DNA of 64,000 nt from Halanaerobium praevalens DSM 2228 (GTDB lineage Bacteria > Bacillota > Halanaerobiia > Halanaerobiales > Halanaerobiaceae), in assembly GCF_000165465.1 (NCBI RefSeq), contig NC_017455.1, positions 124,001 through 188,000 on the forward strand, given 5' to 3'. The notes under the pieces were generated by a model. The model saw only the letters and a program-made list of their open reading frames with translations. It was not told where the DNA came from and did not search any database. Position numbers and translations under genes: made by a program. Each line of letters begins with the position of its first letter. Position 1 is the stretch's first letter. Positions 42,654 to 63,822 of this stretch are shown in pieces.

Positions 42654-42725
42654 TTAAGTCTAACTTATTTATATTTTAATTTAAATTTAGTTATTAAAAA
42701 AATTAATTATTTGAGGAGGCAAAAT

Positions 42726-43931
42726 ATGAGTGAAAAATATGATTTAATAATAATTGGTGGTGGACCAGCGGGAATTTCGGCCGCAATTTATGGTTCTCGT
42801 TCTAGATTGAAAACCTTAGTTTTAGAAGCTAAAAGAAAAACTGGTGGTCAGCCAAGTACATATCATGATATGGAAAATTATCCTGGAGTGCCAGAGACTA
42901 CTGCTTCTGAATTAATGGATAATTTTAAAACTCATGCTGAAAAATTTGGGACTGAATTTAAAAGAGGGGAAGTAGAAGCTATAGAAGTTAATGGTTTCGA
43001 AAAAGTTATTAAATCTAAAAAAGGAAAAGAGTATAGGGCTAAAAGTATTGTAATAGCTACAGGTGCTGAGCCAAGAAAATTAGGAATTAAAGGAGAAGAA
43101 GAATTTAAAGGTAAAGGAGTATCTTATTGTGCTACCTGTGATGCAGATTTATTTACTGATTTAGACATTGTAGTTGTTGGAAATGGTAATTCAGCTGTAG
43201 AAGAAGCTATTTATTTAACTAAATTTGTAAATAAACTGACAATGATTGTCATCCATGATGAAGGAGTAATGGATGCCGAAAAAATTCTGCAGGAACAGGC
43301 AATGGAAAATGAGAAAATTGATTTTGTCTGGAATTCTACTTTAGAAGAAATAAAAGGAGAAGGTCTGGTCGAAAAGGCTGTTGTTAAAAATATTAAAACT
43401 GGTCAAAAATCTGAAATTGATTGTAATGGAGTTTTCTTCTTTGTCGGCCGCGTTCCTAGTACAGACTTTTTAGAAGGCGTTGTAGATTTAACTGAACATG
43501 GTTATATTAAAACAACAAAACAAATGGAAACAAATCAGCCAGGTATTTATGCAGTTGGTGATGTGCGGGATAAAGTTGTGCGTCAGGTAATAACTGCAGC
43601 AGGTGATGGTGCAACAGCAGCTGTGATGGCTCAAGGCTATATTGAAGAAGAAGAATACTGGCAGAATAATGTTGTTCAGGCTGAAAAGCCAACTATAGTA
43701 GCTTTTTGGAGTGTAACTGATCAAAATAGTTTAGATATTGTAAGTCAATTAGAAAATATGGAACTAGAAGCTAAAGGCTATAAGTTTATCAAAATAGATA
43801 CTTATAAAAATAGATTAATTTCTAATAGATATCAAATTGAAGAAATCCCAACAGTACTTAAACTTGAAGCTGGTAAAGTTGCTTCAAAATTAGTTAAACC
43901 TGGAAAAGAAGAAATTGAAGCAATTATATAA
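42726..43931 (+). CDS. trxB: Thioredoxin reductase with fused C-terminal thioredoxin-like domain lacking CxxC
   Basis: 401-residue flavoprotein. Residues 1-310 are a complete thioredoxin reductase: FAD motif IIGGGPAGISAAIYG, redox pair Cys135/Cys138 in SYCATCDADL, NADPH motif VVGNGNSAVEEAIYL and the C-terminal VYAVGDVRDK. Residues about 315-401 look like a thioredoxin fold (VAFWSVTDQNSLD, EEIPTVLKLEAGK with the cis-Pro), but the CxxC is replaced by VTDQ, so this domain cannot do disulfide exchange. It may dock the partner thioredoxin or protein A. ATG 42726 follows GAGGAGG. It supplies electrons to the grd system via the next gene. Confidence 0.9.
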   Translation: MSEKYDLIIIGGGPAGISAAIYGSRSRLKTLVLEAKRKTGGQPSTYHDMENYPGVPETTASELMDNFKTHAEKFGTEFKRGEVEAIEVNGFEKVIKSKKGKEYRAKSIVIATGAEPRKLGIKGEEEFKGKGVSYCATCDADLFTDLDIVVVGNGNSAVEEAIYLTKFVNKLTMIVIHDEGVMDAEKILQEQAMENEKIDFVWNSTLEEIKGEGLVEKAVVKNIKTGQKSEIDCNGVFFFVGRVPSTDFLEGVVDLTEHGYIKTTKQMETNQPGIYAVGDVRDKVVRQVITAAGDGATAAVMAQGYIEEEEYWQNNVVQAEKPTIVAFWSVTDQNSLDIVSQLENMELEAKGYKFIKIDTYKNRLISNRYQIEEIPTVLKLEAGKVASKLVKPGKEEIEAII

Positions 43932-43965
43932 AAAAGATTATATAAAAATCTAAGGAGGAATAAAA

Positions 43966-44283
43966 ATGATTGAATTAACTAAAGAAAATTTTGAAGAAGA
44001 AGTTCTGAACTGTGAAGGTAAGGTAGTTGTTGATTTTTGGAGTGAAAGCTGTGATGTTTGCTTAGAGATTATGCCTGATGTTAAAGAATTAGCAGAAGAA
44101 TTTGCTGCTGATTTTAAATTTGCTAAATTAGATATCAAAGGTAATAGAAGACTGGCTATTGGTCAGCAAGTTTTAGGTCTACCTTCAATTGTATTTTATG
44201 AAAATGGAGAAAAAGTTGAGCATTTAAGTGGAGAAGACTTAGAAGTTGAAGATATTAGAAAAGAATTAGAGGCAAGAGCATAA
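43966..44283 (+). CDS. Thioredoxin with atypical CDVC active site
   Basis: 105-residue thioredoxin. VVVDFWSESCDVCLEIMP carries Cys29 and Cys32 in a CDVC motif rather than CGPC, and the cis-Pro is in VLGLPSIVFY. Thioredoxins that serve glycine-type reductases are known to depart from CGPC. Position right after trxB and before grdC-grdD indicates that it reduces selenoprotein A after each cycle. The changed residues should alter its redox potential. AAGGAGG precedes the ATG. Confidence 0.9.
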   Translation: MIELTKENFEEEVLNCEGKVVVDFWSESCDVCLEIMPDVKELAEEFAADFKFAKLDIKGNRRLAIGQQVLGLPSIVFYENGEKVEHLSGEDLEVEDIRKELEARA

Positions 44284-47603: not shown

Positions 47604-48692
47604 CTAAGCAGATTGTTGTTCTAAATATTTATTAGCTATATTACGACTTGCATTTAAATCAGAGTGGATATGATTACCACACTCACAAGAGTATAGATTA
47701 GCTTTGCGGTTAGATTTTTTAACTTTAGCACATCTAGAACAACTCTGGGAAGTGTACTTTGGATTTATATATTCCACCTTCATCCCAGCTAATTCAGCTT
47801 TGTATTCAATAAACTGTTGAAGTTGATAAAAAGTCCAGCTATGGATGTTTCTATCAGCTCTATTAAGACTCTTAGCAGTATTTCGGATATTCTCTAGATT
47901 CTCCATAATTATAGAACCAACTTGCTTTTGCACAGCAAAATTAATAAGCTGGCGACTAATTTTATGGTTTAAATCAGTCATCCATCTCTGCTCTTTGTCA
48001 TTAATATTTTTAATAGCTTTATTTTTTTTAGATTGACCCAGTTTTTTTCTTAACATACGATACTTTTTGCGGATAAAACCTGCCTGTTTACCATTGTAGA
48101 ATTGGCGATTAATCTCTTTGCCTTGAGGAGTTTTAACACTAGCAACTGCTAATTGGCGAAGCCCTATATCAATTCCCATTAAATTAGAGTTAGTGGTTTT
48201 TTTATCAGCAATTTTAATTGTTACAGCAAAATACCATTTACCTCTCTTGTAGAAGAGACTGGCTTTACCCAATTTGCAGCCACTATCGATATGCTGCCGC
48301 AGTTCTTCAAACCTTTCAGTCTGCTTAACAGGAAAAGCGAATCTTTTGCATTTGCTGGTATAAAGCGGAATTGAAATTATATGATGATCAATCTTATAAT
48401 TTTGATTATTATAGCAAATAGGTTGATTCTCTTTAAACTCTATATTTTCTTTTTTAGAGTTAGACTTTAAAAACTGTTTATAGAGTGCTTTAACTTCTCT
48501 AATATTCTGATTTTTAACAGCAGAGGGAAGGTTAAGCTCTTTAAAATCAGCAGAACTCAAGTTAATTTCTCCTGTTTTAAGTTTTGCAGCAATAGCCTGA
48601 CGATTCTTAACTACTTCTACAATGTTATTTAAGAATATATTTTCTTTTCTTTTAGTTGGTTTTAACAACTCTAAAATATAGGTTAGCTGCAT
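47604..48692 (-). CDS. tnpB: RNA-guided endonuclease TnpB
   Basis: 362-residue TnpB, the RNA-guided nuclease ancestral to Cas12. RuvC catalytic residues Asp175 (LMGIDIGLRQLAV), Glu264 (IIMENLENIR) and Asp345 (HIHSDLNASRN) are present, with the zinc-binding Cys318, 321, 336 and 338. The ATG at 48692 has AAAGGTG upstream; a GTG at 48701 that overlaps the tnpA stop is the alternative. Nothing indicates decay. It probably promotes retention of the element by cutting the vacated donor site. Confidence 0.93.
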   Translation of the reverse strand: MQLTYILELLKPTKRKENIFLNNIVEVVKNRQAIAAKLKTGEINLSSADFKELNLPSAVKNQNIREVKALYKQFLKSNSKKENIEFKENQPICYNNQNYKIDHHIISIPLYTSKCKRFAFPVKQTERFEELRQHIDSGCKLGKASLFYKRGKWYFAVTIKIADKKTTNSNLMGIDIGLRQLAVASVKTPQGKEINRQFYNGKQAGFIRKKYRMLRKKLGQSKKNKAIKNINDKEQRWMTDLNHKISRQLINFAVQKQVGSIIMENLENIRNTAKSLNRADRNIHSWTFYQLQQFIEYKAELAGMKVEYINPKYTSQSCSRCAKVKKSNRKANLYSCECGNHIHSDLNASRNIANKYLEQQSA

Positions 48693-48697
48693 ATTAA

Positions 48698-49087
48698 TCA
48701 CCTTTGATTTTCAATGTAGTGTTGGATAGTTTCAGAACTCACATTACCTGCAGTAGCTACAAAATATGCTCTAGTCCAAATAGAACCTTTAATATTCAAC
48801 TCTGGAAAGTGCTTTGATATTCTCCCTCCAGTAGTACCTTTAATGATATTCATTAGCTTACTGGGAGAATACTTAGGCAAAGCTGATATAAAAAGGTGTA
48901 TATGATCTGGCATTATTTCAGTAGCCAATACTTCAAATTTATGCTTATCAGCTAATTCATTGATAGTATCTAAGGTTAATTGTTTAATTTTAGGATTATC
49001 TAAAATATGTTTTCTATATTTAGGAATCCATATAAAATGATAATTTAAAAGAAACTTTGCATGTCTTGTGTTTTTATAGGTATTCAT
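48698..49087 (-). CDS. tnpA: IS200/IS605 Y1 transposase TnpA
   Basis: 129-residue single-strand transposase with the HUH motif His62-Ile-His64 in PDHIHLFISALP and the catalytic Tyr124 near the C-terminus (SSETIQHYIENQ). It excises and inserts single-stranded DNA as a circle. AGGAG precedes the ATG at 49087. A promoter TTGAAA-N18-TATAAT lies upstream on the minus strand (49120-49150). Length is slightly below the usual 130-155 but all motifs are present. Confidence 0.93.
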   Translation of the reverse strand: MNTYKNTRHAKFLLNYHFIWIPKYRKHILDNPKIKQLTLDTINELADKHKFEVLATEIMPDHIHLFISALPKYSPSKLMNIIKGTTGGRISKHFPELNIKGSIWTRAYFVATAGNVSSETIQHYIENQR

Positions 49088-49365: not shown

Positions 49366-49464
49366 GGGAGTGGCTATATCCATGGTGGATATCCTGGACT
49401 TCAAATCCAGTGGCAGGCAGGCGGACCTGTCTGTGGTGGGTTCGATTCCCACACATTCCCGCCA
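49366..49464 (+). tRNA. selC: tRNA-Sec (anticodon TCA)
   Basis: 99-nt tRNA with anticodon TCA at 49401-49403 in the ctgga-ct-TCA-aa-tccag arm. It has an extended D-stem (tatcc-atggt-ggata), a long variable arm (caggcagg-cgga-cctgtctg), the T-arm gtggg-ttcgatt-cccac and an encoded CCA. The long acceptor plus variable arm are typical of selenocysteine tRNA. It decodes the UGA in grdA, grdH and selD. selA and selB are not in this window. The flanking sequence (49247-49365) shows nothing else. Confidence 0.96.
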
Positions 49465-50138: not shown

Positions 50139-50726
50139 TTAAGAAGCTATATTTTTTATTTTATCAACAAAATATTGATGAAAAATTGTACTAGTTGTTA
50201 ATTCAGGATGAAAAGAAGTTCCAATTAGATACTTGGTTTCTACTGCCAAAATTTTGTTATCCTTTTGATATAAAATTTCAACATCTGGACCAATTTCTTT
50301 GATTAGTGGTGCTCTAATATAAACTAATTCTTGTGTTTGTTCAGAGACTTTAGGAATTACATCCTTTTCAATAAAGCTATTGAGTTGACTACCAAAAGCA
50401 TTTCTTTGAACTTTAATATTAAGTAATTCCAATTGTTCTTTTTCTTCTCCTTCAACTTCTTGGGCCATTAAAATTAAGCCAGCACAACTTCCCCAGATTA
50501 TGTTTTTTTGTTGGTGAAAATTTTTGAGAGCTGCTGAAAAATTATATTCTTTAATCAGTTTTCTCATAGTAGTACTTTCACCACCAGGAATAATTAGTCC
50601 TTTACAGTCAGCCAAAGCTGTTGGTTTTTTAATAGCTTTTGCTTTAACACCTCTAATTTGATTTAAATGATTTAAATGTTCAGCTACTCCACCTTGCAGT
50701 GCTAAAACTCCAATTGTAACTTCCAT
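50139..50726 (-). CDS. pdxT: Pyridoxal 5'-phosphate synthase glutaminase subunit
   Basis: 195-residue class I glutamine amidotransferase delivering ammonia to PdxS. Nucleophile Cys81 is in IWGSCAGLILMAQE, the His-Glu pair in TSFHPELT, and GLIIPGGEST is a family motif. The ATG at 50726 matches the family start (MEVTIGVLALQGG); the longer frame overlaps pdxS. pdxS ends one base before this ATG, so translation is coupled. Confidence 0.95.
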   Translation of the reverse strand: MEVTIGVLALQGGVAEHLNHLNQIRGVKAKAIKKPTALADCKGLIIPGGESTTMRKLIKEYNFSAALKNFHQQKNIIWGSCAGLILMAQEVEGEEKEQLELLNIKVQRNAFGSQLNSFIEKDVIPKVSEQTQELVYIRAPLIKEIGPDVEILYQKDNKILAVETKYLIGTSFHPELTTSTIFHQYFVDKIKNIAS

Positions 50727-50727
50727 T

Positions 50728-51606
50728 TTACCAGCCCCGATCAGCCATTTTTTCGGCATCTGTTAAACCATTAATATCAATACCAGACATTGCTTTACCA
50801 AGATTTTCAGATGCTTCAGCAATGATTTTTGGATCATCAAAATGAGTTGTTGCTTTGACAATTGCAGCTGCTCTTTTAACAGGATTACCAGAACGGAAAA
50901 TACCTGAACCAACAAAGACACCATCACAACCTAACTGCATCATTAAAGCAGCATCTGCTGGTGTTGCAATACCTCCGGCAGCAAAATTAACTACTGGTAA
51001 TTTTCCGTTTTCAGCAGCATATTCTACTAATGCAAAAGGAGCCTGCATATCTTTGGCTGCTGTCATTAATTCTTCACTATCTAAAGTAGTTAATCTCTTA
51101 ATTTGGGAATTAATTTTTCGCATATGGCGTACTGCTTCAACTACATTACCAGTCCCAGCTTCTCCTTTAGTTCTAATCATTGCTGCTCCTTCACCAATTC
51201 TTCTTAAAGCTTCACCTAAATTGGTGGCTCCACAAACAAAAGGAATCTCAAATTTTCTTTTATCAATATGAAAAGCTTCATCAGCTGGAGTTAAAACTTC
51301 ACTTTCATCAATATAATCAATTTCTAAAGATTCTAATATTTGAGCTTCTACAAAATGTCCAATTCTAACTTTAGCCATTACTGGAATTGATACGGTTTCT
51401 ACAATTTCTTTAATCATTTCTGGATCAGACATTCTAGCAATTCCACCTTCTTTGCGAATATCAGCTGGAACTTTTTCTAGGGCCATCACAGCAACTGCAC
51501 CTGCTTCTTCGGCAATTTTTGCCTCTTCAGCAGTGGTTACATCCATAATAACTCCACCTTTTAACATTTGAGCTAAGTTTTTGTTTAGACGATATTTTTC
51601 TGACAT
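50728..51606 (-). CDS. pdxS: Pyridoxal 5'-phosphate synthase subunit
   Basis: 292-residue PdxS making PLP from ribose 5-phosphate, glyceraldehyde 3-phosphate and ammonia. The N-terminal [17 protein letters not shown], Lys79 in VMAKVRIGH (the first-intermediate lysine) and the phosphate site [15 protein letters not shown] are all characteristic. AGGAGGAG precedes the ATG. It is divergent from the PdxR-type regulator across an array of repeats likely to be its operator. PLP is used by the cysteine desulfurase and by SelA, among others. Confidence 0.97.
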
Positions 51607-51645
51607 AAATATTCTCCTCCTGATTGATTAATTTTAATTGTAATG

Positions 51646-51763
51646 ATACAATATAAGTAAATAGCTTGATTTATGTTTTTTACTAATACAATTATAGAAT
51701 AAAACAATACAAAATGTCAAATTATAATACAATATTTTTTTATTTATTTCGTACTAATACAAT
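51646..51763. promoter_or_regulatory. PdxR/MocR operator array: five ATACAA repeats
   Basis: atacaa occurs five times in direct orientation, beginning at 51646, 51686, 51707, 51727 and 51757. Spacings are 40, 21, 20 and 30 bp, all close to multiples of a helical turn, so the sites face one side of the DNA. The longer tactaatacaat is exact at 51681-51692 and 51752-51763. MocR-type regulators bind such direct repeats, and the array covers the divergent pdxS-pdxR promoter region. Confidence 0.7.
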
Positions 51764-51784
51764 TTTAAAGGTGAGGTGGAAAAA

Positions 51785-53227
51785 ATGCTTGATCTTAATT
51801 TAGATGCAGCAAGTAATTCTGCTCTTTATATCCAACTTTATAAAAAATTAAAAAATAAAATACAAAATGATTTAGAAGCTAATACAAAATTACCACCAAT
51901 TAGAAAACTAGCAACAGCAGTTGGAGTAAATCCAGCTACAGTTGTTAAAGCATATGATATGTTAGCAAATGAAGAGATAATTTATAAGAAAGTAGGTAGT
52001 GGAAGCTTTGTGGCCCCAACTAAGAAGATAGTTGAAACTAAAAATCGGCATGATATGTTGAAACATGGTCAAATTAAATTAGCAGAAAGTATTAACTTTG
52101 CTAGTGCAACTCCTAGTAATGATTTATTTCCTGTAGCAGATTTTAAATATGCTATTAATCAGGTATTAGAGCGTGATCAGGGTGAAGCTTTTAGTTATCA
52201 AAAAAGCCAGGGCTTTTTAGCTTTGAGAAAATCTATTCAAAAATATTTTGCTCAGCAAGGTATTAATTCTGCTTTAAAACAGATTCAGGTTGTTTCAGGT
52301 GCACAGCAGGCTATTGATATTATAAGTAAAATAATGTTAGATTATGGAGATCAAATTATAGTTGAAGATCCCACTTATTTTGGAGCTTTACAGGCCTTTA
52401 ATTCTCGAAAAGCAGCAATAAAAAGTATTAAAATGGAGCAGGATGGAGCTGATTTAGAAGCAATGGAAGCATATTTAAAGAAAAATAGAATAAAGTTTTT
52501 CTTTACTATGCAAAACTTTCAAAATCCAACTGGTGTTAACTGGAGTCAAGCTAAACAGCAGCAGCTTTTAGATTTAGCTGAAAAATATGATTTTTATATT
52601 ATTGAAGATGATATTTTGTCTGATCTGTATTATACTGCAGAAAAAAGTAGTATTTTAAAAGAATATGATAAGCAGGATAGAGTTATTTATATTAAAAGCT
52701 TTTCTAAAGTTTTTATGCCTGGTTTAAGGCTAGCTTTTATTATTTTGCCAGAGAGATTATTAGCTCAAATTTTAGAGGCCAAATATGCAACTGATATTTC
52801 GAGCGGTGGTTTAACTCAAAGAGCTTTTGATTACTATTTAAGGGCTGGTTTATTAGATAAGCATATTGAATTACAGCGGAATTTATTCAAAAAAAGATTT
52901 GAAATAATGAAGGCGGAATTAAAAAAAGAGCTGGCTGAGGCAGTGGAAATAGTTTTTCCAACAAAAGGAGGCCTTTATCTATGGCTAAAATTTGTTAAAA
53001 ATGTAGATAGTAAAAAATTGTATCAGCAGGCAGTTGCCAAAGGACTTGTTTTTTCTCCTGGTTATCTATTTTCTTTAAACTCAGATTTTGGAAATCATTT
53101 AAGATTAAGTTTTGCCGCAGTTGACAGTCAAGAAATAAAAAGAGGAGTCCAAATTTTAAAAGAGATATATTTAAATCATGCTCACTTAAATCAAAAAACT
53201 GAGCAGGAATATAGTCCTTTAATTTAA
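51785..53227 (+). CDS. pdxR: PdxR-type GntR/MocR transcriptional regulator
   Basis: 480-residue MocR-family regulator: GntR winged helix (about 1-75, LPPIRKLATAVGVNPATVVKAY) joined to a class I aminotransferase-fold domain (about 110-460) with the PLP-binding Lys in YIKSFSKVFMPGLRL. The divergent pdxST genes indicate that it senses PLP and controls PLP synthesis. ATG 51785 follows GAGGTGG; the GTG at 51776 lies within that site. The repeat array upstream is its probable operator. Confidence 0.93.
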   Translation: MLDLNLDAASNSALYIQLYKKLKNKIQNDLEANTKLPPIRKLATAVGVNPATVVKAYDMLANEEIIYKKVGSGSFVAPTKKIVETKNRHDMLKHGQIKLAESINFASATPSNDLFPVADFKYAINQVLERDQGEAFSYQKSQGFLALRKSIQKYFAQQGINSALKQIQVVSGAQQAIDIISKIMLDYGDQIIVEDPTYFGALQAFNSRKAAIKSIKMEQDGADLEAMEAYLKKNRIKFFFTMQNFQNPTGVNWSQAKQQQLLDLAEKYDFYIIEDDILSDLYYTAEKSSILKEYDKQDRVIYIKSFSKVFMPGLRLAFIILPERLLAQILEAKYATDISSGGLTQRAFDYYLRAGLLDKHIELQRNLFKKRFEIMKAELKKELAEAVEIVFPTKGGLYLWLKFVKNVDSKKLYQQAVAKGLVFSPGYLFSLNSDFGNHLRLSFAAVDSQEIKRGVQILKEIYLNHAHLNQKTEQEYSPLI

Positions 53228-53321
53228 TTTAAAGGAGTTTAGAAAATTAAAAATAAATCTAACTTGACTTTAAAAAATCATTCTGTTAAGATGAAATTGT
53301 AAATTAAAAATTAAATTTGTA

Positions 53322-53389
53322 CCTCATATAATAGTGGGAATATGGCCCACAAGTCTCTACCGGATACCGTAAATAGTCCGACTATGAGG
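53322..53389 (+). promoter_or_regulatory. Guanine (purine-class) riboswitch aptamer
   Basis: P1 is cctcata / tatgagg. P2 gtggg / cccac has the loop aatatgg; the core strand gtctctacc follows; P3 carries the loop ccgtaaat; and the J3/1 strand ccgactatg has C at the discriminating position (guanine rather than adenine, position 74). All core residues of the purine aptamer are present. It lies upstream of the de novo purine operon in tandem with a ykkC-class aptamer. Confidence 0.92.
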
Positions 53390-53392
53390 GAA

Positions 53393-53546
53393 GTGTACCT
53401 AGGTTCCCGCAGTATAAGGGTGATAATTCTAGTTCTTTCGTTTGTGAAAAGACTATAACTATAAATCTTTAGCAAGCGCTGGCTGGTCCGAGCGGTACAG
53501 ATATTGTTATATTACACCGAAGGGATAAAAGCCCAGGCGGGGAGGT
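53393..53546 (+). promoter_or_regulatory. ykkC-class riboswitch, PRPP type by context
   Basis: The conserved ykkC landmarks appear in order: cctaggttcccg (from 53398), gctggtccgagcgg (about 53482-53495), and acaccgaagggataaaagccc (ending 53534). A ykkC RNA directly downstream of a guanine aptamer and ahead of purine synthesis genes matches the described tandem guanine-PRPP riboswitch. PRPP specificity is assigned from this context; ppGpp is the alternative ligand of the nearest subtype. Confidence 0.82.
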
Positions 53547-53592
53547 TCTACTCATTCCAAAAAGTAGAGTCTTCCTACCTGGGCTATTTTTA
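53530..53592 (+). terminator. Regulated terminator of the purine riboswitch
   Basis: agcccagg (53530-53537) pairs with cctgggct (53578-53585), enclosing further pairs, followed by ATTTTTATTT. The 5' arm overlaps the gggataaaagccc element of the ykkC aptamer, so ligand binding there would prevent terminator formation and turn the operon on. Confidence 0.88.
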
Positions 53593-53652: not shown

Positions 53653-54924
53653 ATGAACATCCTTCTTATTGGCAGTGGTGGTAGAGAACATGCTCTTGCC
53701 TGGAAATTAGCTCAAAGTAAAAAAGTAAAAGAATTATATATAGCAGCTGGTAATCCTGGTACTGCTCAATATGGTCAAAATCTAAACTTTGATCAAAATA
53801 ATCAGAAAGCACTATTAGAATTTGCCTTAAAAGAAAAAATTGATATTACAGTAGTTGGACCAGAGGCACCACTAGCAGCAGGAATTGTTGATCTTTTTGA
53901 AAAACATGGACTTCAAGTTTTTGGCCCAAATCAGAGTGCGGCTCGGCTGGAGAGTTCTAAAACTTTTGCTAAAAATTTAATGCAGAAATATCAGATTCCA
54001 ACTGCAGAATATAAAAGTTTTAAAGAAGCTGAAAAGGCAGCAGCTTATATTAGAGAAAAAGGAGCTCCAATAGTAGTTAAAGCTTCAGGCTTAGCAGCAG
54101 GTAAAGGGGTAATTGTTGCTCAAACAGAAGCAGAAGCTTTAAAAGCAGTTAAAACAATTATGAAAGATGAAAAATTTGGAAAAGCAGGTGAAAAAGTAGT
54201 TATTGAAGAATTTTTAAGCGGAGAAGAAGCAACTATTCTTGCTTTTTGTGATGGCCAGACTATAATACCTATGCTTGCTTCTCAAGATCATAAAGCCGCT
54301 TATGATGGTGGCAGTGGACCAAATACTGGTGGAATGGGCGCTTATGCTCCGGCTCCTGTAGTCACTGAACAAGTTAAAACTTATTTTAAAAATGAAATTA
54401 TGGAACCAACACTCAAAGCCCTTCAGCAAGAAAAACTAAATTTTAAGGGAATTATCTATTTTGGCTTGATGATTAAAGCAGGTAAAGCTAAGGTATTAGA
54501 ATATAATGTGCGTTTTGGTGATCCAGAAGCACAAGTAATATTACCTTTATTAAAAACAGATTTAGTAGATATTATAGAAGCAGTTATTAATTGTAATCTA
54601 GCTCAGACTGAAATTAATTGGAAAAATAAAAAAGCAGTTGCAGTGGTAATGGCCTCAGCTGGTTATCCCTTAAATCACAAAAAAGGTAAAGAAATTAGAG
54701 GGCTTAAAGCAGCAGCAAAATCTGAGGATTTAATTGTTTTTCAAGCAGGAACAAAATTTGCAGCAGAAAAAATTTTAACAGCTGGTGGTCGAGTTCTGGC
54801 AGTTACTGCTTTAGGTAATGATTTTGCTAAAGTTATAGAAAAGGCATATGCAGGTGTAGCCAAAATTGATTTTGAAGGTTTTCAGATTCGCAATGATATT
54901 GGCCAAAAAGCACTTGCAAAATAA
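53653..54924 (+). CDS. purD: Phosphoribosylamine-glycine ligase
   Basis: 423-residue ATP-grasp GAR synthetase, step 2 of purine synthesis. MNILLIGSGGREHALAWKL starts the chain, and the ATP-grasp motif region SQDHKAAYDGGSGPNTGG and NVRFGDPEAQVILPLL are diagnostic. ATG 53653 with GGAGTGG upstream is preferred over GTG 53644. First gene behind the tandem riboswitch. The order purD-K-E-B-C-F-M-N-H is unusual for Firmicutes, where purD is generally last. Confidence 0.96.
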   Translation: MNILLIGSGGREHALAWKLAQSKKVKELYIAAGNPGTAQYGQNLNFDQNNQKALLEFALKEKIDITVVGPEAPLAAGIVDLFEKHGLQVFGPNQSAARLESSKTFAKNLMQKYQIPTAEYKSFKEAEKAAAYIREKGAPIVVKASGLAAGKGVIVAQTEAEALKAVKTIMKDEKFGKAGEKVVIEEFLSGEEATILAFCDGQTIIPMLASQDHKAAYDGGSGPNTGGMGAYAPAPVVTEQVKTYFKNEIMEPTLKALQQEKLNFKGIIYFGLMIKAGKAKVLEYNVRFGDPEAQVILPLLKTDLVDIIEAVINCNLAQTEINWKNKKAVAVVMASAGYPLNHKKGKEIRGLKAAAKSEDLIVFQAGTKFAAEKILTAGGRVLAVTALGNDFAKVIEKAYAGVAKIDFEGFQIRNDIGQKALAK

Positions 54925-54945: not shown

Positions 54946-56109
54946 TTGAAATTTAAAGATAAAACCAAACAAAAAATTGGGATTATTGGTGGGGGCCAAT
55001 TAGGAAAAATGATGATTTTGGCAGCTAAAAAAATGGGATTTTATATTACAATTTTAGATCCCAGCAAAGATTGTCCAGCTCACAGTATAGCTGATCAACA
55101 TTTGATTGCTGACTTTGATGATAGCCAGGCAGTTAAAAAATTGGCTCAAAAATCAGATTTAATAACTTATGAATTTGAACATATAAATGTTGAAATTTTA
55201 AAAAAACTGCAAGCTGCAGCTTATCAAGTTTATCCAACTGCCCATAGTTTAGAAATTATTCAGGATAAATATCAGCAAAAAAAAATTTTAAAAGAAAATC
55301 AAATAGCTGTTCCAGACTTTAAAAAAGTTGATAGTCCAGCAGCAATTAAAGCAAAAGCTAAAGAATTTGGCTATCCTCTCATGCTAAAAAGCTGTAGAGG
55401 TGGTTATGATGGTAAAGGTAATTTTTTGCTCAAAAATGAGGCAGAAGTCGAGGCTGGATTTAAAGCCTTAGGAGCTGGAAAAAAATCGTTAATGTTGGAA
55501 GAATTTATCCCTTTTAAAAAAGAGATTTCAGTTATTGCTGCTCGTTCTCTTACAGGAGAGATGAAGGTTTATCCTATAGGAGAAAATGAACATCGAGAAA
55601 ATATACTTTACCAGACAAAAGTGCCAGCTCAAATTTCTGCTAAATTAAAAAAAAGAGCAAAAGAATTGGCTCAAGCAGTACTTCAGCTTTTTGAAGGAAT
55701 AGGAATTTTTTGTGTAGAAATGTTTGTTACAGAAGCTGAGCAGCTTTTAGTAAATGAAATTGCTCCTAGACCCCATAATTCAGGCCATTATACAATTGAG
55801 GCTTGTCTAACCTCTCAGTTTGAACAGCATATTAGAGCTATTACAGGTTTACCTTTAGGAGCCACTAATTTAATTAGACCAGCAGTAATGCATAATATTT
55901 TAGGTAGTGGTCAAAGCGGAAAGGCCCAATTAATTGGTTTAGATTTAGCTTTAGCTTTAGAGGGAGTTAAAGTTCATATTTATCAAAAGTCAATTTCTAG
56001 ACCAGGTCGTAAAATGGGCCATCTAACTGTGACAGCAGCTAAATTAGAAAAAGCAGCAGCAAATGCTTTGAAAGCAAGTCAGTTAATAGAGATTAAAGGA
56101 AAGCCTTAA
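54946..56109 (+). CDS. purK: 5-(carboxyamino)imidazole ribonucleotide synthase
   Basis: 387-residue ATP-grasp enzyme carboxylating AIR with bicarbonate and ATP. IGIIGGGQLGKMMILAAKKMG and SCRGGYDGKGNF are PurK signatures, with NEIAPRPHNSGHYTIEAC near the C-terminus. TTG start at 54946 behind GGAGG. It works with PurE, encoded 95 bp downstream. Confidence 0.95.
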   Translation: MKFKDKTKQKIGIIGGGQLGKMMILAAKKMGFYITILDPSKDCPAHSIADQHLIADFDDSQAVKKLAQKSDLITYEFEHINVEILKKLQAAAYQVYPTAHSLEIIQDKYQQKKILKENQIAVPDFKKVDSPAAIKAKAKEFGYPLMLKSCRGGYDGKGNFLLKNEAEVEAGFKALGAGKKSLMLEEFIPFKKEISVIAARSLTGEMKVYPIGENEHRENILYQTKVPAQISAKLKKRAKELAQAVLQLFEGIGIFCVEMFVTEAEQLLVNEIAPRPHNSGHYTIEACLTSQFEQHIRAITGLPLGATNLIRPAVMHNILGSGQSGKAQLIGLDLALALEGVKVHIYQKSISRPGRKMGHLTVTAAKLEKAAANALKASQLIEIKGKP

Positions 56110-56204: not shown

Positions 56205-56735
56205 ATGCAAGCTAAAATAGGAATAATTATGGGTAGTGATTCTGATCTACCAGTAATGAAAGAGGCAGCAGAAATTTTAGATCATTTTAAAATAGAATAT
56301 GAGTTAACAGTTGTTTCAGCTCACAGGACTCCAAAAAGATTAAATGATTATGCTCAAACAGCAGCCGCAAAAGGTTTGAAAGTAATTATAGCTGGAGCAG
56401 GCGGAGCAGCTCATTTACCTGGTATGGTTGCAGCAGTAAGCAACTTACCTGTAATTGGAGTTCCAATCAAAACTTCAAAGCTAAGTGGACTTGATTCACT
56501 TTATTCAATTGTACAGATGCCACCAGGAGTACCAGTAGCAACAGTAGCAATTAATGGAGCTCAAAATGCAGCTCTACTAGCAGTTCAAATCCTAGCTTTA
56601 AATAATCAAGACTTAGAGCAAAAACAGCAGGAATACCGCCAAGAAATGGAAGCTAAAGTTTTAAAAACAGCAGCTAAATTAGAAGAACAGGGTTATCAAA
56701 ACTACCTTGAAAGGAGCGCAAAATTTGCAGACTAG
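56205..56735 (+). CDS. purE: N5-carboxyaminoimidazole ribonucleotide mutase
   Basis: 176-residue class I PurE, converting N5-CAIR to [34 protein letters not shown] and [14 protein letters not shown] are all family motifs. AGGAGG precedes ATG 56205. Its last codons overlap the purB start (TTG 56725). Confidence 0.96.
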
Positions 56736-58134
56736 AGATATTTTTGCCAATATAAGTCCACTTGATCATCGTTACTCTAGAGATGAAGATGATTATGCTG
56801 AAATTAGTAAATATCTTTCTGAAAAAGCAACAATTGCTTTGCAAGCAGAAGTTGAATTAGCTTTAATTAAAGTATTAGCTGCAAGAGGTCTGGCACCTCA
56901 AACAGCTCCAGCAGAAGTTGAAAAAGCAATTGCAGAATTGACCACAGCAGAAGTTTATGCAGAAGAAGCAAAGACTAAACATAATATTAGAGCTTTAGTT
57001 AACTGTCTGCAAAAAAAAGTTAGTAAAAAATGCCGTCCGTTTTTACACTTTACAGCAACTTCTTATGATATTGTAGATACAGCTAATTCCCTTCGCTATC
57101 AAAAAACTGCTAGAGAATTAATTTTACCTAGGTTAAAAAAATTACATAAAAGCTGGGCAGAAATTGCCTTTAGAGAAAAAGATAGGGTTCAAATTGGAAG
57201 GACACATGGTCAGCATGCCGTTCCCATTACTTTTGGTTTTACTATTGCTGAATATGTAGCCCGTTTAGGTGAAAGAATAGAGGAAATTGAAGCTAAAACA
57301 GATAAATTAGTCGGAAAATTTGCAGGAGCAGTTGGTGCTTATAATGCTAGTAGTATTTTTTTTGATGATCCAGAAGCGTTTGAAAAAGAAGTTTTAGCTG
57401 AACTAGGTTTAAAAGCAGGAGAACATTCAACTCAAATAGTTCAAGCAGAGCCAATGACAGATTTTGTTCACACTTTAGTGTCAACTTTTAGTGTGCTGGC
57501 AGCTTTTGCTGATGATATGCGTCAGCTGCAGCGCTCAGAAATTGCAGAAATAGGAGAATTTTTTGCTAAAGATCAGGTTGGTTCTTCAACAATGCCTCAT
57601 AAAAGAAATCCAATTAATTATGAAAATGTAAAAAGTTTATGGAAAGCTTTTATGCCCCAGATGACAACAGTTTATTTAGATCAATTATCTGAACATCAAA
57701 GAGATTTAACTAATTCAGCTTCTTCACGTTTTATTCCAGAATTAATAACGGCTCTACTTTCTGCAGTATCTAGATTAACTAGAGTTAGTTCTAAAATGGT
57801 AGTAGATCAAAAAAATATGCAAAAAAACTTTGAGCAGAATAAGAAAATGATTGTAGCTGAACCATTATATATTCTTTTGGCAGCAGCTGGTCATCCTGAT
57901 GCACATGAGGCAGTACGTAAATTAACTTTAGAAGCTCAAAAAACAGATCTTTCTTTAAAAGAACTAGTTGCTCAAAGCAAAGAATTAAAGGGTTATTGGG
58001 AAAATTTTAGAGACTTACAAAAAGAAATAATTTTAAAACCAGAAAAATATACTGGTATAGCAGCTCAGAAAACAGAAAAAATAGTAAAAAATTGGCAGAA
58101 AAAATTTGCTTATGAACTTCAACTGGAGGTTTAA
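56725..58134 (+). CDS. purB: Adenylosuccinate lyase
   Basis: 469-residue fumarase/aspartase superfamily enzyme acting on SAICAR and adenylosuccinate. The signature [18 protein letters not shown] and [14 protein letters not shown] are present. The likely start is TTG 56725, with AAGGAG eight bases upstream, rather than TTG 56707; it overlaps the purE stop by 11 bases. Serves both the IMP branch and AMP formation. Confidence 0.94.
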
Positions 58135-58138
58135 TCAA

Positions 58139-58858
58139 ATGGAAAAAAAAGAAATGCTTTATGAAGGTAAAGCTAAACAGCTTTTTGCAACTGAAGTTAC
58201 TGATCAACTAATTGTTCATTTTAAAGATGATGCAACTGCTTTCAATGGTCAAAAAAAGGGGCAGATTAAAGAAAAAGGTAAAATTAATAATAAAATAACT
58301 AATTTCTTTTTTAAGCTTTTAGAAGCTGAAGGGATTAAAACTCATTTAATTAGAGAACTAAATCAGACTGATTCTCTGGTAAAAAAAGTTAAGATTATTC
58401 CCTTAGAAGTTGTAATGCGTAATCTGGCAGCTGGCAGTTTAGCTAAAAGAATTGGTTTTACAGAAGGTAAATTACTGAGACAGCCAGTAATCGAATTTTA
58501 TTACAAAGATGATCAGCTGGGTGATCCCTTAATCAATATCTCACACATTGAACTACTAAAACTTGCTGAACATCAGGAATTAGAAAAGCTAATCGCCTTA
58601 AGTCATAAAATAAATTATATTTTAAGCAAATTTTTAAAAGCACGCAAAATAGATTTAGTTGACTTTAAACTTGAATTTGGAAAAACAGCAAGTGGAGAAA
58701 TAATTTTAGCAGATGAAATCACCCCTGATACCTGTCGTTTTTGGGATAGTCAAACTAAAGAAAAACTAGACAAAGATCGTTTTCGCCGTGATCTAGGCAA
58801 TGTAGAAGCAGCTTATCAAGAAATGTATCAGCGAATTACTGGTCAAAAGTGGCAATAA
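58139..58858 (+). CDS. purC: SAICAR synthetase
   Basis: 239-residue phosphoribosylaminoimidazole-succinocarboxamide synthase. LYEGKAKQLFATEV at the N-terminus, PLEVVMRNLAAGSLAKRIG and ADEITPDTCRFWDS are diagnostic. ATG 58139 follows CTGGAGGT at the end of purB; a longer frame from 58106 overlaps purB and is rejected. Confidence 0.96.
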   Translation: MEKKEMLYEGKAKQLFATEVTDQLIVHFKDDATAFNGQKKGQIKEKGKINNKITNFFFKLLEAEGIKTHLIRELNQTDSLVKKVKIIPLEVVMRNLAAGSLAKRIGFTEGKLLRQPVIEFYYKDDQLGDPLINISHIELLKLAEHQELEKLIALSHKINYILSKFLKARKIDLVDFKLEFGKTASGEIILADEITPDTCRFWDSQTKEKLDKDRFRRDLGNVEAAYQEMYQRITGQKWQ

Positions 58859-58883
58859 ATTTAGCTTTTCAGGGAGGTAAGTG

Positions 58884-60362
58884 ATGAGAAAAAATTGTAA
58901 TTTCTCTAAACAAAATTCAAATTATAATAATCAGAGCCCAGCTGCTTTAGAAAAAAAGCAATCTAAGTTGCTGGCAGATAAAATGACCGAAGAATGTGGA
59001 GTATTTGGAATTTTTAATGCTAATGGTGAGAGTAGTGCAGCCGAATTAAGTTATTATGGCTTAATTGCTCTTCAGCATCGAGGCCAAGAAAGTGCTGGTA
59101 TTTGTGCTAATTATCAAGGTGAATTTAATTTGCATAAAGGTATGGGTTTAGTAGAAAGCGTTTTTGAAAAAGAAGATATAAAAAATTTAAAAGGTGAAAT
59201 GGCAATTGGTCATGTTCGCTATTCAACTAGTGGCTCAAGTAAATTAGCTAATGCACAACCTATTTTAATTAATAGTATGAAAGGAGATTTGGCTTTAGCC
59301 CATAATGGTAATCTAGCAAATGGAGCTGAGTTAAGAAATAACTTAGAAAGTAATGGTTCTATTTTTCATTCTACTTTAGATACAGAAGTAATTGCTCATT
59401 TAGTTGCGCGCTCTTTTGAAGATAATATAGTAGAGGCTTTAAGCCAAAGTTTACATCAGCTTAAAGGAGCTTTTTCTTTAGTAGCAATGACTAAAGATCA
59501 GTTAATTGCTATTAGAGATCCAAGTGGTTTTAGACCACTTTCACTTGGCAAATTAAATAATATTTATGTTGTGGCTTCAGAAAGTTGTGCCTTTGATATT
59601 ATTGGGGCTGAATTTGTACGAGATATAGAACCAGGTGAAATAGTAGTTATTGATCAAACAGGAATTAAAAGCAGATCTTATAGCAGTCAAAATAAAACAA
59701 GTCTTTGTGTTTTTGAGTATATATATTTTGCTAGACCTGATAGTAAAATAGCAGGCCAAAATGTTTTATTAGCCCGGAAAGAGATGGGAAAACAGCTGGC
59801 CCGCGAAATGGATGTTGAAGCAGATATTGTAGTTCCGGTTCCAGATTCGGGTATAGCTGCAGCTTTGGGTTTTGCTGCAGAATCTGGAATTCCATATGCT
59901 CAGGGTATTTTGAGAAATCGTTATATGGGAAGGACTTTTATTCAGCCAACTCAAGCAATTAGAGATCTAAAAGTTAGACTTAAATTATCACCAATTAAAG
60001 AAATTATTAAAGATCAAAGAGTGGTACTGATAGATGATTCAATTGTCAGAGGAACAACAAGCAAACAAATTATTGGACGGATTAAAGAAGCAGGAGCTAA
60101 AGAAGTTCATCTAGCTATTTCATCTCCTCCAGTAGAACATCCTTGCTATTTTGGACTTGATACTTCTCGTCGGCAGGAATTAATAGCTAGTAGAAATTCT
60201 ATTGCAGAAATAGCTAAAATTATTGGTGCTGATAGTCTTCATTATTTGAGTCAGGCTGGAATGCTCAAATCTATTCAGACTGAAGTTAAACTTGGTTTTT
60301 GTACAGCCTGTTTTGATGGAGATTATCCAATAGAGAGTCGTTACTTAACAGAGGAGGAATAA
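58884..60362 (+). CDS. purF: Amidophosphoribosyltransferase with long propeptide
   Basis: 492-residue enzyme making phosphoribosylamine from PRPP and glutamine, the first step. The N-terminal Ntn domain has the nucleophile Cys38 in MTEECGVFGIF, preceded by a 37-residue segment; Bacillus PurF has an 11-residue propeptide. The PRPP loop is VVLIDDSIVRGTTSKQI. Cysteines in SLCVFEY, EHPCYFGLD and LGFCTACFDG fit the oxygen-sensitive [4Fe-4S] type. ATG 58884 follows AGGGAGG. A Met two residues into the MTEEC motif lacks a ribosome binding site. Confidence 0.94.
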   Translation: MRKNCNFSKQNSNYNNQSPAALEKKQSKLLADKMTEECGVFGIFNANGESSAAELSYYGLIALQHRGQESAGICANYQGEFNLHKGMGLVESVFEKEDIKNLKGEMAIGHVRYSTSGSSKLANAQPILINSMKGDLALAHNGNLANGAELRNNLESNGSIFHSTLDTEVIAHLVARSFEDNIVEALSQSLHQLKGAFSLVAMTKDQLIAIRDPSGFRPLSLGKLNNIYVVASESCAFDIIGAEFVRDIEPGEIVVIDQTGIKSRSYSSQNKTSLCVFEYIYFARPDSKIAGQNVLLARKEMGKQLAREMDVEADIVVPVPDSGIAAALGFAAESGIPYAQGILRNRYMGRTFIQPTQAIRDLKVRLKLSPIKEIIKDQRVVLIDDSIVRGTTSKQIIGRIKEAGAKEVHLAISSPPVEHPCYFGLDTSRRQELIASRNSIAEIAKIIGADSLHYLSQAGMLKSIQTEVKLGFCTACFDGDYPIESRYLTEEE

Positions 60363-60364
60363 AT

Positions 60365-61399
60365 GTGGGTTTAGATTACAAAAAATCTGGAGTAGATATA
60401 GATGCTGGTAAAAAAGCAGTTGAGATGATCAAAAAAGATGTAGAATCAACTTTTGGACCAGAAGTAATGACTGGTTTGGGAGGTTTTGGTGGCCTTTTTA
60501 AAGCTGATTTAACTAATTATAAAAATCCTGTTTTAGTTTCAGGCACAGATGGAGTTGGAACAAAACTTAAATTAGCTTTTAAGCTGGATATTCATCAGAC
60601 AATTGGAATTGATTTAGTTGCAATGTCAGTTAATGATATCCTGGCTCAGGGAGCCAAACCCTTATTTTTCTTGGATTATTTGGCAACCGGAAAACTTGAA
60701 CCCCAAAAAGCAGCTGAGATTATTAAAGGAATTGCAGCTGGTTGTAAAGAAGCTGGTGCTGCTTTAATTGGGGGAGAAACTGCTGAGATGGCAGGCTTTT
60801 ACCAAGCTGGAGAATATGATCTGGCAGGTTTTGCAGTGGGCATAGTTGATCAGCAAGAAATGATTACTGGAGCTGAAATTAAGGCAGGAGATTTAATTAT
60901 TGGCCTTAAATCAAATGGTCTACACAGCAATGGTTTTAGTCTGGCCCGGGCTGCACTTTTTGAAAAAGCTAATTTTGATTATAGGGCTGAGGTTGAGGGT
61001 CTAGAAAATAATTTAGGTCAAGAACTATTAAAACCAACTAAAATTTATGTTAAAACCGTGCTGGCCCTTTTAGAAAAATTCAAGCTCAAAGGTATAGCAC
61101 ATATTACAGGTGGTGGTTTAATAGAAAATTTACCACGCATTTTACCAAGAGGGCTCAAAGCTGAAATCTCAAAAAATAGCTGGCAGCCGCAGAAAATTTT
61201 TAGTTTAATTAAAAAAGCAGGAGAAATTACAGAAAAAGAAATGTATAGAACTTTTAATATGGGAATTGGAATGACCTTAGTTATTGCTAAGGAAGATAAA
61301 GATAAAGTATTAGCGGAATTAGAAAAAATGGGAGAACAGGCTTGTCTAATTGGTGAAATCAGTAAAGCAGCTGGTGAGCAGCCGCTCCAACTAAAATAA
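60365..61399 (+). CDS. purM: Phosphoribosylformylglycinamidine cyclo-ligase
   Basis: 344-residue AIR synthetase. LDYKKSGVDIDAGKKAVEMI starts the chain, with VLVSGTDGVGTKLKLAF, GGETAEMAGFYQAGEYDLAG and HITGGGLIENLPRI as family motifs. Starts at GTG 60365, two bases inside an out-of-frame ATG, with GAGGAGG upstream. Immediately follows purF. Confidence 0.96.
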   Translation: MGLDYKKSGVDIDAGKKAVEMIKKDVESTFGPEVMTGLGGFGGLFKADLTNYKNPVLVSGTDGVGTKLKLAFKLDIHQTIGIDLVAMSVNDILAQGAKPLFFLDYLATGKLEPQKAAEIIKGIAAGCKEAGAALIGGETAEMAGFYQAGEYDLAGFAVGIVDQQEMITGAEIKAGDLIIGLKSNGLHSNGFSLARAALFEKANFDYRAEVEGLENNLGQELLKPTKIYVKTVLALLEKFKLKGIAHITGGGLIENLPRILPRGLKAEISKNSWQPQKIFSLIKKAGEITEKEMYRTFNMGIGMTLVIAKEDKDKVLAELEKMGEQACLIGEISKAAGEQPLQLK

Positions 61400-61412: not shown

Positions 61413-62036
61413 ATGCTTAAAATAGCTGTTTTTGCCTCAGGTAGAGGCTCAAACTTTCAGGCAATAATTGATCAGATAAAAAGAGCTAAAATTCCAGCTG
61501 AAATTAAATTTTTACTTAGTGATCAAAAAAATGCTGGTGCTTTAAAAAAGGCAGAAAAAGAGGGGATAAACTCAACTTTTATTGATCCAGCTCAATTTGA
61601 GACTGAGCTTGCTTATGAAAAAAAATTAGTTAGTTTGTTAAAAGAAGCTCAGGTTGAACTTATTGTTTTAGCTGGATATATGAGAATCTTGTCTCCCTTT
61701 TTTGTTAAAAAATTTAAAAAGCAAATAATTAATATTCATCCTTCACTTTTACCTGCTTTTAAAGGTCTTGCTGCTCAAAAACAGGCTGTTGATTATGGAG
61801 TGAAATATAGTGGCTGTACTGTTCATTATGTTGATCAGGGGATGGATACTGGCCCAATAATTAAACAGGCAGTAGTAAAAGTTAAGCCAGAAGATAGTGC
61901 TGCTGATCTGGCAGCTAGAATTTTAAAAAAAGAACATCAGATTTATCCAGAAGTAATTAAATTAATTGCCGAATCTAAATTAAAAATTGAGGGTAGAAAA
62001 GTTAAAATTTTAAAGGAGGAACAGAGTCTTGGCTAA
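61413..62036 (+). CDS. purN: Phosphoribosylglycinamide formyltransferase
   Basis: 207-residue GAR transformylase using 10-formyl-tetrahydrofolate. FASGRGSNFQAIID is the phosphate-binding start, and the catalytic His is in NIHPSLLPAFKGLAAQKQAV with Asp in HYVDQGMDTGPII. Overlaps the purH start by 8 bases. Confidence 0.96.
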   Translation: MLKIAVFASGRGSNFQAIIDQIKRAKIPAEIKFLLSDQKNAGALKKAEKEGINSTFIDPAQFETELAYEKKLVSLLKEAQVELIVLAGYMRILSPFFVKKFKKQIINIHPSLLPAFKGLAAQKQAVDYGVKYSGCTVHYVDQGMDTGPIIKQAVVKVKPEDSAADLAARILKKEHQIYPEVIKLIAESKLKIEGRKVKILKEEQSLG

Positions 62037-63603
62037 AATTAAAAGAGCATTAATTAGTGTTTACAACAAAGATGGAATTATAGAACTGGCAGCTGCTTTA
62101 AAAAAATTCGGAATAGAAATAATTTCAACTGGTGGTACAGCTAAACTCTTAAAAGAAAATAAAATTAAAGTTAAAGAAGTAGAAGAGCTAACTAAATTTC
62201 CAGAAATGATGGATGGCCGTGTTAAAACTTTAGACCCTGCTATCCATGCTGGTATTTTGGCAGTTAGAGATAATGAGCAGCATTTAAAAGAAATCACAGC
62301 TCAGAAGATAGAACCTATTGACCTTGTTGTCTGTAATCTCTATCCATTTGCTAAAACAATTGCTAAAGCAGATGTGACTTTGGCAGAGGCAGTAGAAAAT
62401 ATTGATATCGGTGGCCCAACAATGATTCGCTCAGCTGCTAAAAATAATAATGATGTAGGAGTTGTAGTTGACCCAGCTGATTATGATCAACTTTTAGCTC
62501 AACTGAAATTAGGAAATGGTGCTTTAACTAAGTCGCAAAAATTAAAATTAGCTTATAAAGCTTTTCAGCATACAGCAGAATATGATCAGAAAATACAAAA
62601 ATATTTAAGAAAAATTGTATTTAAATCTAAAACAGAAAAAATGCCTGAAATGATTTCGGATCATTATGATAAAAAAGCTGATCTTCGTTATGGAGAAAAC
62701 CCTCATCAAAAAGCAGCTTTCTACTTAGAAAAAGAACAGCATGAGGCTTCAATTTCTAATGCTGAGCAGCTGCATGGTAAAGGAATGTCTTTTAATAATA
62801 TTAATGATACAGATGGTGCTTTAGAGTTAGTTAAAGAATTTGAAACTAAAGCAACAGCAGCAGTAATTAAACATGCAAATCCTTGTGGAATAGCAGCTGC
62901 TGACAATTTAAAAGAAGCTTTTATTAAGGCACATGCTGGTGATCCTCTTTCTGCTTTTGGTTCAATTGTGGCTGTTAATCAAAAAATTGATTTAGCAACA
63001 GCGGTAGAAATTGCAGACCAGGATAAATTTATTGAAGTTGTGATTGCACCTGACTATGAGCCTGAGGCTTTAAAGATTTTAAAAGAGCGCTCTAAAAAAA
63101 TGCGTATTTTAAAGACTGGAGCACTTTATCGAAATCAAGCTCAACCAGGATATAGTATGAAAAAAGTAAGAGGTGGACTTTTAGTTCAAACTAGAGATTT
63201 GGCTCAAACAACTGCTGAAGACTTAGAAGTGGTAACTGAAAAAAAGCCGACTAAAGCTCAGATTAAAGATTTATTATTTTCTTGGAAAGTAGTAAAACAT
63301 GTTAAATCAAATGCAATTGTAATGGCTAAAGATGAGATGGCTGTTGGGATTGGAGCAGGTCAAATGAGTCGAGTTGATTCGATGATTATTGCTGGTCGTA
63401 AAGCTGATGGGAGACAAAAAGATGGAGTTGCAGCTTCTGATGCTTTTTTTCCTTTTCCAGATGCTATAGAAAAAGCAGCAAAAATGGGTATTAAAGCAAT
63501 AATTCAGCCAGGAGGTTCGATTAGAGATAAAGAAGTAATTGAAGCCTGTAATAAATTTCAGCTGGCAATGGTCTTTACTGGGAAAAGACATTTTAGACAC
63601 TAG
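62029..63603 (+). CDS. purH: AICAR transformylase / IMP cyclohydrolase
   Basis: 524-residue bifunctional enzyme finishing IMP synthesis. The N-terminal MGS-like IMP cyclohydrolase domain (about 1-200) has ISTGGTAKLLKE and PEMMDGRVKTLDPAIHAG. The C-terminal AICAR transformylase domain has LRYGENPHQKAAFY, KHANPCGIAAA and the end QPGGSIRDKEVIEAC. TTG start at 62029 with AAAGGAGG upstream. Last gene of the operon. Confidence 0.96.
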   Translation: MAKIKRALISVYNKDGIIELAAALKKFGIEIISTGGTAKLLKENKIKVKEVEELTKFPEMMDGRVKTLDPAIHAGILAVRDNEQHLKEITAQKIEPIDLVVCNLYPFAKTIAKADVTLAEAVENIDIGGPTMIRSAAKNNNDVGVVVDPADYDQLLAQLKLGNGALTKSQKLKLAYKAFQHTAEYDQKIQKYLRKIVFKSKTEKMPEMISDHYDKKADLRYGENPHQKAAFYLEKEQHEASISNAEQLHGKGMSFNNINDTDGALELVKEFETKATAAVIKHANPCGIAAADNLKEAFIKAHAGDPLSAFGSIVAVNQKIDLATAVEIADQDKFIEVVIAPDYEPEALKILKERSKKMRILKTGALYRNQAQPGYSMKKVRGGLLVQTRDLAQTTAEDLEVVTEKKPTKAQIKDLLFSWKVVKHVKSNAIVMAKDEMAVGIGAGQMSRVDSMIIAGRKADGRQKDGVAASDAFFPFPDAIEKAAKMGIKAIIQPGGSIRDKEVIEACNKFQLAMVFTGKRHFRH

Positions 63604-63612
63604 AAATAAGCT

Positions 63613-63652
63613 TAAAGGATAATCATTTTAATGATTATCCTTTATTTTTTTG
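63613..63652 (+). terminator. Terminator of the purine operon
   Basis: aaaggataatcatt pairs perfectly with aatgattatccttt, loop of two bases, followed by ATTTTTTT. Confidence 0.9.
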
Positions 63653-63740
63653 TATAGAATTTAATTTTAACTAGCTAAATAAAGGTTTTTAAAGCTGAAT
63701 ATCGAAATTAGAAAGTAACAGTAAAATAATATTTTAATAA

Positions 63741-63822
63741 AAGCAAAACAATTGAAAAATTGTGACGCAAAGATCTGAATCTAAAGCTAAATTAGCAATG
63801 ATTGTCAGATTCACCTCAGGAT
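63741..63822 (+). promoter_or_regulatory. c-di-GMP-I (GEMM-I) riboswitch aptamer
   Basis: Landmarks match the GEMM-I class in order: a GCAAA lead-in (63743), hairpin caatt-GAAA-aattg with the GAAA tetraloop, then the strictly conserved gACGCAAAG (63764-63772), then CTAAA (63781-63785), a short gcta-aat-tagc hairpin, and the pairing strand ttgtcagattcacc. This parallels the Vibrio Vc2 RNA. A terminator follows directly. Confidence 0.85.

Follow-up and report, generated by a model that had tools for sequence, protein, structure and literature searches.

A predicted tandem guanine–PRPP riboswitch with a single terminator upstream of the purDKEBCFMNH operon of Halanaerobium praevalens

Introduction

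Tandem riboswitches that combine a guanine aptamer with an aptamer for phosphoribosyl pyrophosphate (PRPP), of which 192 are listed in PMC9481103, are two-input gates. In characterised homologues, guanine promotes termination, PRPP prevents termination and PRPP overrides guanine, which makes the gate an IMPLY function that is off only when guanine is present and PRPP is absent (PMC5912903). Here we analyse a member of this class located at positions 53,322 to 53,592 of a 64,000-nucleotide stretch of the Halanaerobium praevalens DSM 2228 genome (contig NC_017455.1, positions 124,001 to 188,000, forward strand; hereafter the window), the host genome being a single contig of 2,309,262 bases. A preliminary description of the window, made from its letters alone, had likened the locus to a described two-input gate turned on by PRPP and off by guanine; such a gate is indeed in the literature, with the IMPLY logic just given (PMC5912903).

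The PRPP aptamer is subtype 2b of the ykkC class, which also comprises the guanosine tetraphosphate (ppGpp) aptamer, subtype 2a, and the guanidine-I aptamer. At position 49, guanidine-I carries A whereas 2a and 2b carry a pyrimidine. At position 96, >97% of PRPP aptamers have G, and ppGpp aptamers have A, C, U or no base; a G96A change swaps specificity about 40,000-fold (PMC6031431). From the sequence of the Thermoanaerobacter mathranii RNA, mutual exclusion of the guanine P1 helix and the PRPP P0 helix has been proposed (PMC6031431).

Two aptamers and one terminator upstream of purD

A tandem guanine–PRPP riboswitch whose two aptamers use a single expression platform very probably controls transcription of purDKEBCFMNH. 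The sequence itself establishes the two aptamers, their terminator, the bases diagnostic of subtype and a strand common to both aptamers (Table 1).

The guanine aptamer is complete, as the preliminary description had held, and guanine would be its ligand. The Rfam Purine model (RF00167) matches at 53304-53404 with E 9e-14 over the window, far above its gathering score of 37 bits, and the J3/1 specificity position, 53382 within GACUAUGAGG, reads C in the alignment. A C at this J3/1 position, not a U, marks a guanine-type purine aptamer. In several other tandems the J3/1 of the guanine aptamer is not GACUA but has GCC, GUC or GGC, and some carry CCUUAAA in L3 (both among L013, L014, L022, L024 and L005). 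The only other purine aptamer of the genome is a single one, preceding a permease-like gene (L155, 1722-3374; genome 338221 onward; NCS2 type by eye).

Directly behind the guanine aptamer, with a gap of 4-5 nt between the end of guanine P1 (53389) and the start of PRPP P1 (53394), close to the published 5-7, follows the ykkC-class RNA. In the Rfam 15 scan of this region the sole ykkC-type family reported was Guanidine-I (RF00442), at 53388-53541; with permissive thresholds and 381 nt searched, the match reached 41.8 bits (E 2.6e-6), under the family's gathering score of 63 bits. Because Rfam 15 could not decide the subtype, purpose-built covariance models were used, one for PRPP aptamers trained on 17 sequences from outside the genus Halanaerobium and one for ppGpp aptamers trained on six sequences upstream of ilvE or a 2-isopropylmalate/citramalate-synthase-like gene; the PRPP, ppGpp and guanidine-I models are of similar size and differ in their training sets. 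The PRPP model gave the best score on the window RNA, 72.7 bits (E 1.4e-20), against 48.8 bits for ppGpp and 41.8 bits for guanidine-I, the lead of 23.9 bits over ppGpp being only approximate because the alignment of the six ppGpp sequences has flaws at the 3' end. As controls, the Priestia megaterium tandem (L054), a homologue of the tested Bacillus megaterium codA RNA, scored 81.7 bits with the PRPP and 33.4 bits with the ppGpp model, the ppGpp model outscored the PRPP model on all of its training sequences, and guanidine-type RNAs scored about 40 bits on both models and 82-95 bits on Rfam Guanidine-I.

The diagnostic bases agree with the models. Position 49 is a C (CCGAG-C-GG, CCGAGCGG), thus the pyrimidine expected of 2a and 2b. 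Position 96, which was located by aligning the RNA to the published description of G96A, is a G (GCCCA-G-GCGGG, GCCCAGGCGGG), which is invariant in the 17 PRPP sequences and replaced by A or absent in the ilvE-type controls. A guanine–ppGpp switch is therefore highly improbable: the 48.8 bits that the ppGpp model still yields are countered by the better PRPP score, by the G that follows GCCCA and by the genes downstream, which belong to purine biosynthesis and so fit the PRPP subtype, whereas the ppGpp controls precede branched-chain amino acid genes. A guanidine-I riboswitch, suggested by RF00442 being alone among the Rfam 15 ykkC-type families in reporting the RNA, is more improbable still, as the match is under the gathering score and well below the guanidine-type controls, the base after CCGAG is C where guanidine-I has A, the P0 helix is absent from guanidine-I and there are no guanidine genes nearby. 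Neither of these subtypes thus scored best, the region folds as ykkC, and the PRPP type named in the preliminary description therefore stands; the assignment of the region to the PRPP subtype is supported, with PRPP as its likely ligand.

A single terminator is found at the tandem for the two adjacent aptamers. By direct folding it consists of a hairpin at 53531-53585 followed by a U-tract, and none of 200 shuffled sequences folded as well; the automated terminator scan did not report it at 53531-53592 because its loop is 10 nt. The 3' part of the ykkC RNA supplies its 5' arm, which starts within the GCCC of GGGATAAAAGCCC, a conserved element, and also covers the P0 3' strand, so that the earlier claim of one terminator overlapping the ykkC element ahead of purD is borne out. 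The promoter-consensus search that yielded the candidate promoter returned 3 sites against 1.5 expected by shuffling.

Table 1. Predicted switch and pur operon in the window (genes named by NCBIfam models)
Feature	Position	Strand	Evidence or remark
Candidate sigma-70 promoter, TTGACT-17-TAAGAT, TG before -10 hexamer	53264..53292	+	consensus match only
Guanine (purine) riboswitch aptamer, bounded by the two P1 strands	53322..53389	+	RF00167 84.4 bits
Shared strand UAUGAGGGAAG, guanine P1 3' strand and PRPP P0 5' strand	53383..53393	+	partner matching, 16 distinct strands
ykkC-class aptamer, PRPP subtype 2b, long P1-arm extension at about 53414-53480	53393..53560	+	PRPP model 72.7 bits
Intrinsic terminator common to both aptamers, 21-bp stem and U-rich tail	53531..53592	+	fold -32.4 kcal/mol, z -5.97
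P0 3' strand (around GUUCUACUCAU), also within terminator 5' arm	53546..53556	+	folding/duplex analysis
purD	53653..54924	+	TIGR00877, 549.8 bits
purK	54946..56109	+	TIGR01161
purE	56205..56735	+	TIGR01162
purB	56707..58134	+	TIGR00928, 318 bits, just under 326 cut-off
purC	58106..58858	+	TIGR00081
purF	58881..60362	+	TIGR01134
purM	60365..61399	+	TIGR00878
purN	61413..62036	+	TIGR00639
purH	62029..63603	+	TIGR00355
Terminator-like hairpin closing operon, 14-bp stem then T-run	63613..63644	+	after purH

A common strand in guanine P1 and PRPP P0

The strand UAUGAGGGAAG has two possible partners: CCUCAUA at 53322-53328, with which it forms guanine P1, and UUC.A.CUCAU just 3' of the ykkC core, which pairs with AUGAG..GAA (duplex -7.0 kcal/mol) in the P0 helix joining the two ends of the PRPP aptamer. 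Guanine P1 and PRPP P0 are mutually exclusive, as both use this strand. For a comparative view, 71 tandem loci were extracted and reduced to 16 distinct shared strands, and pairing with cognate partners was compared with pairing in 20000 permutations. Cognate pairing averaged -7.83 against -4.88 kcal/mol for guanine P1, with no permutation as good, and -8.12 against -6.36 kcal/mol for P0, with 40 permutations as good. The shared strand thus fits both of its partners across the 16 sequences and is therefore matched to both, as strand competition predicts, which gives comparative support to a mechanism that published work had proposed from a single example.

The predicted mechanism is as follows. 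Binding of guanine would lock guanine P1 and occupy UAUGAGGGAAG, the PRPP aptamer would be unable to close P0 because that strand is held, and its freed 3' part (GCCC... GGUUCUACUC) would pair into the terminator, stopping transcription. PRPP would close P0 and P3 with the same strands, and because guanine P1 would thereby be broken and the terminator blocked, transcription would continue even with guanine present. The net logic would be IMPLY, off only at high guanine and low PRPP. That the two aptamers instead act independently (NOT A AND B), without strand competition, is very unlikely: the aptamers of the codA homologue each fold alone in the in-line probing reported in PMC5912903, but just one terminator is present here, and the 3' strand of guanine P1 also serves as the 5' strand of P0, its matching being specific to these partners throughout the family.

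Some observations weigh against a tandem switch governed by strand competition. Folding of the free full-length RNA, calculated without ligand or tertiary energies, disfavours the bound folds, with a minimum free energy of -89.3 kcal/mol compared with -83.6 kcal/mol when guanine P1 is enforced and -66.2 kcal/mol when the PRPP state is enforced. The permutation tests count related strands as independent, and taking one sequence per distinct strand reduces the relatedness only partly. The ykkC P1 arm also carries a long extension.

It is possible, though of low probability, that the switch acquired a second strand exchange in Halanaerobium. There the leader AUUUGUACC (53315-53323), which overlaps the guanine P1 5' strand, is strongly complementary to GGUACAGAU (53494-53502), the P1 3' strand of the PRPP aptamer; the pairing amounts to -11.9 kcal/mol in most of the genus, is conserved in Halanaerobium and rare outside, and is used in the full free-RNA minimum of the window. 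In partition-function folding, 13 genus members had between 0 and 8.3 expected pairs, averaging 1.76 (0.08 in the others and about 0.3 in the window), and the value was close to zero until the terminator has been made. We regard the exchange as a weak lead because this folding support is inconsistent, the flanking sequence AT-rich and the species related to one another. If true, it would disable both aptamers without either ligand, and the gate, otherwise on by default, would shift towards being off unless PRPP is present.

The pur operon and its conservation

The preliminary description had found it striking that the switch governs a full nine-gene operon. Nine genes in the order purDKEBCFMNH do run to 63603, but 'full' was an overstatement: none of the nine is purL, purQ or purS by NCBIfam, and a purL-like frame of 1282 codons (1282 aa) lies about 1.8 Mb away at 1,974 kb (G000:C1:1974166-1976109, L187), so that the operon is not the whole pathway. 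An Rfam scan of the stretch around this purL-like gene reported no riboswitch. Nor is the arrangement striking, because all nine other Halanaerobium genomes checked share it, the tandem and the identical gene order being present in 10 of 10 with the window included. This order stands behind the tandem in some other Halanaerobiales as well, and several other genomes have a gap between purC and purF with room for further genes, filled in one case (L199) by purQ/purL-like frames after purC. In genome G019 (L200), a permease similar to that of L155 lies behind a full tandem guanine–PRPP switch, an association that is not named in the available text of PMC5912903.

The de novo purine operon of a halophilic anaerobe would thus be placed under an all-RNA two-input gate, in a pattern that is wide across the order. 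The switch is real and well preserved, and an ordinary member of an already known class: work published in 2018 had given the architecture, the ligands and the logic for homologues, which leaves little that is new.

Other features of the window

Just downstream of the pur operon lies a cyclic di-GMP-I riboswitch aptamer (63732-63818, +, 59.9 bits), followed by a gene for a 666-aa response-regulator/GGDEF-like protein and an EAL-like gene (domains by eye); possibly cyclic di-GMP controls its own turnover through this aptamer. Upstream, a selenocysteine tRNA (49366-49460, +, 66.9 bits) and a SECIS_4 element (39871-39908, +, 57.8 bits) occur near thioredoxin and thioredoxin-reductase-like genes at 42711-44283 (named by eye), and together with their neighbours these elements probably form a selenoprotein gene cluster for glycine/betaine reductase. 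An IS200/IS605-type element occupies 47604-49087 (-), in which a small TnpA-like transposase adjoins TnpB (NF040570, 192.8 bits). The region 50139-53227 is, to judge from its genes, a pyridoxal phosphate synthesis unit, with pdxS and pdxT (pdxT by eye) lying on the minus strand and a MocR-type regulator matching PdxR (343.7 bits) running divergently from them.

Comparison with known systems

The closest described system is the codA tandem of Bacillus (Priestia) megaterium together with its relatives (PMC5912903), with which the window RNA shares aptamer order, short spacing, one terminator that overlaps the PRPP aptamer, the conserved ACACCGAAGGGATAAAAGCCCAGGCGGG core and an association with purine-related genes. 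In contrast to that system, the window switch precedes a nine-gene pur operon and not codA, its ykkC P1 arm is longer by about 60 nt and its P0 3' strand has the sequence GGUUCUACUC, also seen in other Halanaerobiales, and one extra bulged base. With the PRPP aptamer of T. mathranii (PMC6031431) it has in common G96, the pyrimidine at position 49, P0 and the exclusion between P0 and guanine P1, whereas that aptamer is known from a crystal structure (6CK5) and the window RNA, known from sequence, has a longer P0 potential and the long P1 arm. The wild-type T. mathranii aptamer binds PRPP about 50-fold more tightly than ppGpp. The ppGpp riboswitch (ykkC 2a) is built on the same scaffold with many identical bases, but its position 96 is not G, the genes it regulates are those of branched-chain amino acids, and its model scores lower on the window. 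The Guanidine-I riboswitch (RF00442) also has the ykkC scaffold, yet it differs by the missing P0, by A at position 49 and by its CCCGGGAG 3' end, and the window RNA falls below its Rfam threshold.
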